Below are positions 36,375-40,398 of a stretch of DNA of 64,000 bases, piece by piece; positions within the stretch are counted from its first letter, which is position 1, and each line of letters opens with the position of its first letter. This DNA is from Lyngbya sp. CCAP 1446/10 (GTDB lineage Bacteria > Cyanobacteriota > Cyanobacteriia > Cyanobacteriales > Microcoleaceae). The position numbers were made by a program, and so were the translations under genes. The stretch lies in assembly GCF_026130175.1 (NCBI RefSeq), contig NZ_JAIGNI010000037.1, positions 1-64,000 of the forward strand, in the 5' to 3' direction. The notes beneath the pieces were generated by a model. It was not told the origin of the DNA and did not search any database. It saw only the letters and a list, made by a program, of their open reading frames with translations.

Positions 36375-36433
36375 ATCCTGACGGATGGGGGGAAGTCTGT
36401 ATCAGGTTATAGACACTGACACGGATACTACCC
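36375..36433 (+). promoter_or_regulatory. Conserved upstream block of patX copy 1
   Basis: The 59 bases before the first RGSGR gene match those before the second copy (37022-37084). Shared parts are ATCCTGA, GGGGnAAGTCnGTATC, ATAGACAC and CACGGATACTACCCATG. Every known patX is reported to have a DIF1 promoter motif within 69 bases upstream of the gene (Elhai and Khudyakov); this block is in that place. I cannot confirm the exact DIF1 consensus from memory. Confidence 0.65.
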
Positions 36434-36685
36434 ATGCACACCTACACTGCAATTGCTTTACTGAGCCTGTTGGGCATTACCTTGAGTGCCAGCGCCCAGA
36501 GAGCTTTTGAATCTCTAATCCAACTGCTCGAAATTACCATCGCTCATTATATTGTTTTAGCGCCAACTCAATCACAAAAAGGCGATCGTTCTCCCGAAAG
36601 AGGCAGCGGACGCAGAGAGTTTGCTCAGACAGATATTTACCAAAAAATTGGGAGTATGTCAAATACCAGCATTTTAATGGCATAG
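36434..36685 (+). CDS. patX: PatX-like RGSGR protein, copy 1
   Basis: An 83-residue protein with an N-terminal hydrophobic export-type segment (YTAIALLSLLGITLSASAQ, residues 4-22) and the pentapeptide RGSGR in SPERGSGRREF (about 54-64). RGSGR is the part of PatS and HetN that binds HetR and blocks differentiation; PatX is the widespread RGSGR protein with a hydrophobic N-terminus that co-occurs with HetR in filamentous cyanobacteria. The gene lies 2.8 kb upstream of hetR and has a tandem paralog 0.65 kb downstream. The region between (REF then AQTDIYQKIG...) is not conserved with copy 2. Expected processing would release a short peptide that travels between cells; this is inferred from PatS/PatX. 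Start ATG 36434 is shared by context with copy 2. Confidence 0.85.
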   Translation: MHTYTAIALLSLLGITLSASAQRAFESLIQLLEITIAHYIVLAPTQSQKGDRSPERGSGRREFAQTDIYQKIGSMSNTSILMA

Positions 36686-36728
36686 GACGAAAGGAAGTTC
36701 TGCAAATGAGTGGGTTTCGCCCGCCCGT

Positions 36729-36890
36729 GTCGCTCTGATTTTCTGGGATTCTAGTTGGTCATGTTCATCTGGCAACTACACTTCTTGTTGACAGTTATTA
36801 GGATATTTTTTGTGTGTTAAAAATAATAGCAGATCGAGCTGCAACCGCCATCTATCAAGGGATTTACTCTTGCGATATTTGGCGGTTTTG
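36729..36890 (+). ncRNA. Conserved structured 3' region of patX copy 1
   Basis: The sequence from CTGATTTTCTGGGATT (36735) through AGTTGGTCA...GGCAACT to a terminator-like stem AACCGCCA (36843-36850)/TGGCGGTT (36880-36887) with T-run matches the same arrangement after copy 2 (37389-37545). It lies about 50-200 bases after the stop. It could be a 3' UTR with a terminator or a separate small RNA. Confidence 0.5.
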
Positions 36891-37021
36891 TCTGTTCCAG
36901 GCTGGAGATACATTTTACCTATCAATGTAGGCAACTAAAATTTATTGTGGGTGACACAATTTGACAAGTTAAATAATTCTCGCATCATGTTTTTTGGATA
37001 GTCTGGCAATTTCAGGGAAAT

Positions 37022-37559: not shown

Positions 37560-37781
37560 AAAATAATACGGGAAGCGGGAAACGAGCGCGACTTTAGTCC
37601 TGAGAGGAAAGCGACGCGGGGGACTTCAGTCCCCGTGTCTTTCTTAGTTAGCACAATGGTGTGGATATTCTATATATTTCTTAACGACTTCACTACTAAA
37701 TAAAATTGTGTTGTCGTAACTTGACTTGTCCACAATATTCCTCTAAACTAAATAAATCAATTAATTTTTTAGGAAAAAGGG
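37560..37781 (+). mobile_element. Left part of an IS200/IS605-type TnpB element
   Basis: Upstream of tnpB lies the sequence GCGACTTTAGTCCTGAGAGG and GGGGGACTTCAGTCCCCGTG (37589-37641), with stem-loops of the GACTTTAGTC/GACTTCAGTC kind typical of IS605-family ends in cyanobacteria. No tnpA (Y1 transposase) frame is present, so the element depends on a transposase elsewhere. The exact left boundary was not found. Confidence 0.6.
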
Positions 37782-39059
37782 GTGGCTAAAATCAAAAAAG
37801 CAATGGGAGTACAACAGGTATTGCTGGCTCCCACCAAAGAAGTTGAAGCAGTGTTGCAGTATCTCTGTCGGCAATCGGGCAAGCTATACAATAGCGCTGT
37901 TTATTTCGCTCGTCAGACATTTTTTAAAACGGGAAAACTGCTAACAGGAAAATTCGACTTATCTTTTGAACCGTCAATTTCTAAATCGATGGTTGCTAAG
38001 TCACTGCCTTCAACACCCATGCAGCAAACTCTGATGTCGGTGGCGGAGGCATTTAAAAGCTTCAAGGAATTGAGAAAATTATATCTTCAAGGTAATTTAC
38101 ACTTTAAACCTAAACCGCCGAACTATCTAACGGGGCCTAAACTATTTAAAGTAGCTTACCCCAATTCGGGAGGACTAAAGCCAGCCCTTGTCGGTAATCA
38201 ATTGCGATTTTCCCTGGGTTTAACAGTGCGGCGATGGTTTGGGATTTCTGAATTCTTTCTGCCGATGCCATCAAATATTGACTGTGCAAAGGTTAAAGAG
38301 TTCACGATTCTCCCGAAAAACGGTGCTTTCTATTTGGAAGTGTCTTACGAGGTAGAATGCCAGCAGCATAATTTAGATCCCAGTCAAGCATTATCAATCG
38401 ATTTGGGAACTGCCGACAATTTAGCTGCTTGTGTTGACACGTTGGGAAATTATTTCTTGCTCGACGCTCGCGTTATGAAGGCGATGAATCAACTTTGGAA
38501 CAAGAAAGTAGCGACCAGGAAAGAAGGGAAGCCCACAGGTTATTGGGATAGCTGGTTAGACCGCGTAACTCGTAAGCGCAATCATCGGATGCGCGATGGT
38601 GTCAATAAAGCTGCAAAGTTAATCGTCGATTATTGCTTGAAGCACGGTATTGGCAATCTAGTAATTGGATGGAACCAAGGGTTTAAATCCAATGTTGATA
38701 TGGGCAGTCTGAATAATCAGAAATTTGTTCAGATGCCTTTGGACAAATTGAAAGAGCGTTTAAATCAACTTTGTGATTTGCACGGTATTCAGTTCACCGA
38801 AACAGAAGAAGCGTACAGTTCCAAAGCTAGCTTTCTTGATGGAGACTCCCTACCCAAGTACGGTGAAAAACCGCTTGGGTGGAAAGCGTCTGGAAGGCGA
38901 ATTAAGCGTGGATTGTATTGTTCTGCGGACGGAAGTTTAGTTAACGCGGATCTTCACGGTGCCGCTAATATTCTAAGAAAAGTAGCCAGTAAGTTAGGTG
39001 TAAAACTTGACCGACTGGGTAGACGGTGTTTGGCTACCGTAGCGAGAATCAGGCTTTAG
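37782..39059 (+). CDS. tnpB: TnpB RNA-guided nuclease of an IS605-type element
   Basis: A 425-residue TnpB-family protein. RuvC-like catalytic residues look intact: Asp in LSIDLGTADNLAACV (about 205), Glu in FTETEEAYSSKASFLD (about 344) and Asp in LVNADLHGAANILRK (about 388). The four-Cys zinc ribbon usual between the last two motifs is missing; only one Cys (LYCSADG) is there, replaced by SLPKYGEKPLGWKASGRRIK. TnpB proteins cut DNA under guidance of an RNA made from the element's right end. The start is GTG 37782 with AGGA upstream. It sits between patX copy 2 and hetR in the same orientation. Because RuvC residues are kept, it is not an obvious inactive TldR-type repressor. Confidence 0.9.
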   Translation: MAKIKKAMGVQQVLLAPTKEVEAVLQYLCRQSGKLYNSAVYFARQTFFKTGKLLTGKFDLSFEPSISKSMVAKSLPSTPMQQTLMSVAEAFKSFKELRKLYLQGNLHFKPKPPNYLTGPKLFKVAYPNSGGLKPALVGNQLRFSLGLTVRRWFGISEFFLPMPSNIDCAKVKEFTILPKNGAFYLEVSYEVECQQHNLDPSQALSIDLGTADNLAACVDTLGNYFLLDARVMKAMNQLWNKKVATRKEGKPTGYWDSWLDRVTRKRNHRMRDGVNKAAKLIVDYCLKHGIGNLVIGWNQGFKSNVDMGSLNNQKFVQMPLDKLKERLNQLCDLHGIQFTETEEAYSSKASFLDGDSLPKYGEKPLGWKASGRRIKRGLYCSADGSLVNADLHGAANILRKVASKLGVKLDRLGRRCLATVARIRL

Positions 39060-39116
39060 TGATAACTAAGGTTATTCTGTCAGCAGAATCGAGCGTGGCT
39101 TCAGCCCGCTTGAGTG
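39060..39116 (+). ncRNA. Putative omega RNA/right end of the TnpB element
   Basis: Directly after the tnpB stop come three hairpins: GATAAC-TAAG-GTTATT, TCTG-TCAG-CAGA and GAGCGTGGCTTCAGCCCGCTTG (39090-39111). The last is the typical IS605-type right-end stem-loop. TnpB guide RNAs usually derive from this place, with the guide just beyond the end. The precise ends are not determined. Confidence 0.45.
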
Positions 39117-39492
39117 TCAATCTCCCCCCTCTCGGAGCCACCTCAAATTCCTCCGATCGCAATAGTTCTTTACCTTTTCCCCCCGCAGGTGGGGTTGAAT
39201 TTTCAACGGCTGCACTATAATTAACGTGCGATAACTAACTTATATATAAGTACACCCTGAGTGCAGAGGGTGCAGCACTTGACTTAAATTGGCCAATAAG
39301 AACCATTTATTCGGTGTCGATCGCCTTTAAGTCAATGCCCCTGTTATCTCAGGGAAATGAACTCGCCTGAATATTAGGGTAGCTGCCAAGATTTCCGGCG
39401 ACAGTCGGCTATGCTTGATTCGGCGGTCTCGCAATATTTTATTAATGGAGGATGAAAAGATGCCTCCAAGTTTTACTATTTCGGAGATTGTG
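39117..39492 (+). promoter_or_regulatory. hetR upstream region
   Basis: About 375 bases between the TnpB element and hetR. It contains ACCCTGAGTGCAGAGGGTGC (39254-39273), a short imperfect palindrome, and two candidate ribosome sites: GGAGG (39447-39451) before ATG 39460 and GGAG (39483-39486) before ATG 39493. A promoter is expected here, but I see no clear NtcA box (GTA-N8-TAC). Confidence 0.45.
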
Positions 39493-40398
39493 ATGAAAAA
39501 TGACTCTTTAGATTTGGTCAAAAGCCTGAGCCCCAGTGCAATGGATCAGATCATGCTATATCTGGCGTTTAGCGCCATGAGAACCAGTGGGCACAGGCAC
39601 GGGGCGTTTCTAGACGCGGCCGCAACGGCGGCTAAGTGTGCCATTTATATGACCTATATGGAGCAGGATAACAACCTGCGGATGACCGGACACTTGCATC
39701 ACATTGAGCCTAAACGGGTGAAAGTGATCGTCGAGGAAGTCCGGGAAGCTCTGACTAAGGGAAAATTGCTGAAAATGTTGGGTTCCCAAGAACCTAGATA
39801 TTTGATTCAGTTTCCTTATGTCTGGCTGGAACAGTATGCTTGGGTTCCGGGACGCCCTCGGATTCCGGGCAACAGTTTGACTGCGGATGAAAAAAAATAT
39901 CTCGAAGGCAAGGTTCCTGCTAATCCACCTGATGCTCAACTGATCAATTCTTTTCAGTTTATGGAGTTGATCGAGTTTCTGCACAGGCGATCGCAAGAAG
40001 ATATGTCTCCAGAAAGGCGAATGCCTTTGAGCGAAGCTCTAGCAGAACACATCAAGCGCCGCTTGATCTATTCGGGAACAGTGACTCGCATTGATTCTCC
40101 TTGGGGAATGCCTTTTTATGCCCTCACCCGCGCTACTTACTCTCCGGCAGAGCAGGAAGAGCGGACATTTATTATGGTGGAGGATACGGCTAGATATTTC
40201 CGGCTGATGCAGGATTGGGCGGAAAAACAACCCAAGGTGATGCGAGTTATGGAAACTTTAGATATTCCGCCGGAACGGCTCGACCAAGCTGTTGAGGAAT
40301 TAGATGAAATTATTCGTAATTGGGCCGATCGCTATCACAAACGGGGCGAACCAACGATGATTGTACAAATGGTTTTTGGGCCACAAGACGACGATTAA
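39493..40398 (+). CDS. hetR: Differentiation regulator HetR
   Basis: DNA-binding master regulator known from heterocyst formation and present in nearly all filamentous cyanobacteria. The 301 residues align over full length with Anabaena HetR (299): DPSAM-type start here as [80 protein letters not shown] and [20 protein letters not shown] are all kept. The C-terminal hood domain, which binds RGSGR, carries METLDIPPE and [15 protein letters not shown] (about 254-282). I chose ATG 39493 ([12 protein letters not shown]) by homologue length; ATG 39460 has an even better GGAGG and would add [11 protein letters not shown], and an open frame reaches 39415. Two patX genes lie upstream. In a strain without heterocysts HetR may act in other cell fates, for example necridia or hormogonia; this is not shown here. 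Confidence 0.97.

Follow-up and report, generated by a model that had tools for sequence, protein, structure and literature searches.

Two tandem patX genes lie upstream of hetR in Lyngbya sp. CCAP 1446/10. They were examined in a 64,000-nucleotide stretch of contig NZ_JAIGNI010000037.1, referred to below as the window, and compared with the corresponding loci of relatives. The hetR-distal gene, called copy 1 (36434..36685, + strand), codes for 83 amino acids (aa) with a hydrophobic leader and the sequence ERGSGRREF; it is the canonical ERGSGR copy. The hetR-proximal gene, copy 2 (37085..37312, + strand), codes for 75 aa with a hydrophobic leader, the segment YMLSAQTQQ and the sequence RRGSGRYDF. 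Downstream follows hetR (39493..40398, + strand; 301 aa), present once in the genome and identified by PF03574, PF18460 (the hood) and the NCBIfam equivalog NF009718. One hetR match was obtained per genome, and HetR relatives with solved structures include 4hri, 4yrv and 4ynl. All three genes had been proposed in a first-pass annotation, and their positions, strand and motif flanks are confirmed. The two small proteins share 54% identity and are detectable as homologues in a genome-wide search (E 7e-15); homology and conservation rule out chance open reading frames (ORFs). A search of the 6.75 Mb assembly gave no patX-like gene beyond these two.

The PatX family reportedly goes back to Elhai and Khudyakov (2018). 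PatX as known from Nostoc PCC 7120 and other filamentous species shares with the window genes a small precursor, hydrophobic leader, RG(S/T)GR motif and linkage to hetR, and its DIF-type promoter has a putative counterpart in the window (PMC7761841, PMC12756182). What differs here is the tandem arrangement, with ERGSGR in copy 1 and RRGSGRY in copy 2, and the existence of sister lineages whose copy 2 is motif-less but otherwise conserved. PatS of Anabaena/Nostoc PCC 7120 is likewise an RGSGR (ERGSGR) inhibitor of HetR, but it is a peptide of 13-17 aa with RGSGR at its very end (PMC7476756), whereas both window precursors are larger and carry the motif internally. By size, motif, homology and hetR linkage the two genes belong to PatX, as first annotated, and not to PatS; the window system is a variant of the known PatX-HetR kind. 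That the proteins are of exported type is a prediction from one feature, the hydrophobic N-terminus, which both window copies and most aligned orthologues do have.

The duplicated unit spans the coding sequence together with its 5' leader and a portion of the 3' region. Its non-coding repeats (70 bp at 90%, 73 bp at 77% and 29 bp at 93% identity) gave no match to structured RNA in an Rfam search. Each copy is preceded by a putative promoter element, TCCTGAC-N-TATCAG for copy 1 (36376..36405, + strand; DIF-like) and TCCTGAT-N-TATCTC for copy 2 (37025..37055, + strand), the latter shared with copy 1 and with relatives. Elements of the type TCCTGA-N-TATC precede almost every patX copy in the Oscillatoriales loci, and among relatives the copy 2 element is retained as TCCTGAT or TCCCGAT, together with a conserved start site. 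The DIF1 motif is TCCGGA. TCCTGAT-N-TATC differs from it by one base, and TCCGGAT occurs in at least one relative (L048). DIF1 motifs in patX promoters are described in PMC7377430. Terminator-like hairpins follow both copies on the + strand, one at 36835..36896 (-20.3 kcal/mol, with a T-rich tail) and the other at 37480..37545 (-21.4 kcal/mol, with a T run).

Distribution and age of the tandem

Linkage of patX and hetR in filamentous cyanobacteria is already known. A literature search on PatX and Microcoleus, which did not cover the founding 2018 PatX paper, returned no report of a tandem variant. In a wide set of 79 hetR loci with organism names, most have an RG(S/T)GR protein of similar build upstream of hetR, which speaks against a chance arrangement. 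The closer comparison set consisted of 30 genomes of the genus Microcoleus/Tychonema, the genus being assigned from HetR neighbours. Two genomes seem misnamed by this measure: Richelia sp. CSU_2_1 (L033) has a Microcoleus-like HetR (92%), and the HetR of Microcoleus vaginatus WJT46-NPBG5 (L048) is not Microcoleus-like (81%).

The comparison of hetR neighbourhoods for patX number and order, suggested in the first-pass annotation, was carried out by profile search and reading of the loci. Two copies were found in 16 genomes of the genus and one copy in 12, while in the remaining two hetR lies at a contig end; the motif has an asymmetric fate in the two copies, as described below. No second full patX copy near hetR was seen in the loci read outside the genus.

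Orthology was assigned from a tree of the 5' region and leader, with support given by the Shimodaira-Hasegawa-like approximate likelihood ratio test (SH-aLRT). In 15 genomes the hetR-proximal copy belongs to a single clade (SH-aLRT 100), and the duplication is therefore old within the genus. The tandem of L032 represents an independent duplication. Each window copy forms a clade of four with its counterparts from L011, L014 and G013 (99 each). Single-copy patX genes may be ancestral or may stem from later deletions. In a tree of the 3' region, the single genes of L018, L121 and L123 group with copy 2 of the M. vaginatus type (99), as recombination between the copies would give.

Motif fate and selection in the two copies

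The first-pass annotation drew a picture of a cassette with two maintained inhibitors and named failure to maintain RGSGR as a ground for giving its reading up. That ground applies to copy 2 and clearly does not apply to copy 1. Copy 1 retains RGSGR in all 16 tandem genomes. Copy 2 has lost RG(S/T)GR in 12 of them and keeps it in four, the window and its three close relatives, which are the only genomes with two intact motifs (Fisher p 1.6e-5 for 16/16 vs 4/16, the rows not being independent). The two-inhibitor picture thus applies only to this small clade, and the asymmetric evolution of the copies across the genus is the stronger result. The hexapeptide ERGSGR follows the same division: it is present in copy 1 of 16/16 and in the single genes of 12/12 genomes, and in copy 2 of 0/16. 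Even where both motifs are intact, the preceding residue is E in copy 1 and R in copy 2 in all four genomes; compared with ERGSGRR, RRGSGRY of the window has R in place of E before the motif and Y in place of R after it.

At the position of the motif, the other copy 2 genes carry IGKGR, RRNKR, KGDGR, RNTQR (twice), RDTQR, RGGSR, RRGER, SGSGR, RNSPR, RGSRR or KNTLR. Their frames are open and the leader and YMLSAQTQQ are always present (as YMLSAQTQH in L028); neither stops nor frameshifts were found in any of the 16 copy 2 genes. The R that closes the motif (position 5) and an F/L three positions further on are invariant in 12/12 motif-less genes, so the region is still under some constraint. 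Residue parsimony gives five separate motif losses within the copy 2 clade, in addition to L032, a count that depends on the tree and on parsimony; the minimum without residue reconstruction is two, again in addition to L032.

Copy 1 is relaxed elsewhere. In the clade of the window its YMLSAQTQQ is replaced by YIVLAPTQSQ or similar, and in L012, L015, L026, L031, L032 and L124 a stop follows directly after RGSGR, which makes the motif C-terminal as in PatS; the copy 1 protein of L012 has only 25 aa. The divergence of the copies outside the motif, noted in the first reading, is more than noise, the constraint on the two copies being reciprocal.

This pattern is also seen in the ratio of nonsynonymous to synonymous rates (omega), estimated by pairwise counts and by a codon maximum likelihood model with shared branch lengths, which agree. 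Three regions were distinguished: the first 46 codons (leader and YMLSAQTQQ), 15 codons round the motif, and the tail. For motif-less copy 2 (11 rows, codon model), omega is 0.35, 2.06 and 0.99, respectively, the value at the motif differing from 1 with p 3e-4, and in a sliding scan the omega peak has its centre at the motif. The motif region reaches 7.5 (p 2e-5) in the M. vaginatus-type trio (L016, L027, L028), with about 18 nonsynonymous changes in its 15 codons vs 5 in the 46 preceding codons. Between L027 and L028 there are 11 nonsynonymous changes in the motif region and no synonymous change in the whole gene. The corresponding values for copy 1 are 0.57, 0.13 (below 1, p 1.6e-9) and 1.04, and those for the single genes 0.38, 0.65 and 0.88. 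In copy 2 of the two-motif clade, omega of the motif region is 0.40, not significantly below 1.

Proposed division of labour and its rivals

What HetR and PatX do in filaments without heterocysts has been described as a mystery (PMC11298460). The host of the window was first annotated as probably non-heterocystous. NifDK was looked for in the assembly and not found, and the two members of the nitrogenase-like family PF00148 are ChlB and ChlN of protochlorophyllide reductase. There is therefore no nitrogenase component I, and nitrogen fixation or heterocyst patterning is ruled out as the target process.

We consider it fairly probable that an old patX duplication left copy 1 as the HetR inhibitor while copy 2 is being sub- or neofunctionalised, the window representing an early state. 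The two copies of the signal gene appear to be dividing its tasks between them. patX would have been duplicated in tandem early in the genus, in a Microcoleus-type filament lacking nitrogenase, each copy coming with its own DIF-like promoter and terminator and encoding a precursor with hydrophobic leader. In Nostoc, PatX is exported and cut by PatP (PMC12756182), and attachment of RGSGR/ERGSGR to the HetR hood prevents HetR from binding DNA (PMC7476756). By homology with these PatX and PatS systems, copy 1 would be the maintained inhibitor, whose export and proteolysis would yield ERGSGR that docks on the HetR hood and prevents DNA binding. Copy 2 would have been released from the inhibitor job, its leader and YMLSAQTQQ being kept by purifying selection while the pentapeptide region changes. 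Judged from sequence, copy 2 of the window is probably a second inhibitor acting through RRGSGRY, with altered processing or affinity. The motif-less copy 2 of sister lineages would most readily be explained as a sub- or neofunctionalised precursor of a putatively exported peptide, and with respect to HetR this copy would have another role or none.

Several points weigh against this interpretation. The omega signal above 1 draws much of its strength from the M. vaginatus-type trio, and multi-nucleotide or recombination events could be part of it; the tail of L031, for example, resembles that of L028 and looks recombined. The motif region was delimited post hoc, with the variation in the alignment already known, and the sample is small. 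Finally, transcriptomes of Leptolyngbya BL0902 deletions suggested an action of PatX that does not depend on HetR (PMC11298460). Those data and the HetR route could be reconciled if copy 2 had kept a role of this HetR-independent kind.

Plain redundancy or dosage, with both copies giving the same RGSGR signal and the copy 2 motif being dispensable elsewhere, is unlikely, though it retains some plausibility. The window and its three relatives do keep both motifs, with an omega of 0.40 (not significantly below 1) for the copy 2 motif region; RGTGR, found in L014 and L017, is also how the Nostoc PatX peptide reads (PMC12756182), and 12 genomes live with a single patX. Redundancy nevertheless predicts decay throughout, whereas frame and leader of copy 2 are intact in all 16 genomes, with a leader omega of 0.35, and change is mainly confined to the motif region; moreover, the E/R difference before the motif separates the copies in all four two-motif genomes. 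Also doubtful is the idea that copy 2, after duplication of a developmental inhibitor, has turned into an exported and diversifying peptide signal to which HetR no longer responds, such as one specific to a strain or species. An unchanging leader, YMLSAQTQQ, a variable core and an R-x-x-F end would then be parts of its architecture, and the window, with two different RGSGR peptides, an intermediate.

It is improbable that PatX of this clade does not act through HetR and that its linkage to hetR is historical. The effects of patX deletion in Leptolyngbya BL0902 were largely hetR-independent (PMC11298460), and no patX-like ORF lies beside hetR in the Planktothrix loci read. The HetR hood, checked for co-variation with the altered copy 2 motif, showed none and is nearly invariant though the copy 2 peptides vary. 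Against this stand the linkage kept through the genus and the ERGSGR of copy 1 or single genes in 28/28 genomes read, identical to PatS-6, which binds Nostoc HetR (PMC7476756). A decaying copy 2 pseudogene under relaxed selection, with the window at an earlier stage, is already disfavoured and quite improbable: repeated motif loss and freely varying tails are what it would give, but sixteen intact frames, the conserved upstream element and start site, the contrast in omega between the first 46 codons and the motif (0.35 vs 2.06) and the retention of R and F/L in 12/12 genes are not. Motif variability produced by a diversity mechanism, either template-directed or by conversion from donor copies, is hardly credible; the concentration of changes in the trio recalls it, but they hit all bases, and when the L016 sequence was searched in three genomes only the two patX copies matched over their length, which speaks against template-driven diversification.

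If copy 2 is indeed being sub- or neofunctionalised, the conserved parts of PatX are split between the copies as natural separation-of-function alleles, copy 1 telling the purpose of the RGSGR peptide and copy 2 that of the remaining PatX. A developmental peptide signal would be caught diverging, with a positive-selection signature centred on the signal itself.

Other PatX forms and the surroundings of the pair

Unusual PatX forms were seen in other genomes. In Leptolyngbyaceae MO_188.B28 a PatX-like protein encoded upstream of hetR (L074, positions about 2366-2580) has four RGSGR repeats, three of them AWRGSGR, and resembles a multi-peptide precursor; Lyngbya aestuarii (L039) has two RGSGR. 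PatX of Arthrospira and Okeania (L043, L046, L171) combines a degenerate internal site (e.g. PWEGTPRRGF) with an HRGSGR that is C-terminal or nearly so, and thereby parallels the two-copy pattern within one protein. In four genomes, apparently Planktothrix (L166, L167, L169, L170), RGGGR replaces RGSGR; a fifth (L168) has RGSGR.

The first-pass annotation saw the two patX genes and hetR as a compact cassette. The two genes do lie upstream of hetR, but a 1.57 kb insertion, overlooked in the first reading, sits in between (about 37557..39124, + strand). It carries an IS200/IS605-type tnpB (ORF 37782-39059; PF01385, OrfB_IS605, and NF040570, guided_TnpB, both above cut-off), and an Rfam search gave no RNA match beside this gene. 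The site is empty in the close relatives L011, L017 and L009, and the cassette is therefore less compact in the window than in its kin. The patX-hetR operon of Leptolyngbya BL0902 (PMC11298460) offers a comparison: it also comes from a non-heterocystous filament and has patX directly upstream of hetR behind a predicted DIF1-type promoter. Its one patX is predicted to be co-transcribed with hetR, whereas the window has two, with a terminator-like hairpin after each and the TnpB insertion before hetR.

Upstream of copy 1, at 34431-36338, lies a gene for a flavin adenine dinucleotide (FAD)-dependent oxidoreductase, whose position is kept in relatives. It contains an in-frame low-complexity insertion at about 35380-35430 (around SSSFSPLPSSFFPLPSSF) that is missing from most relatives compared.

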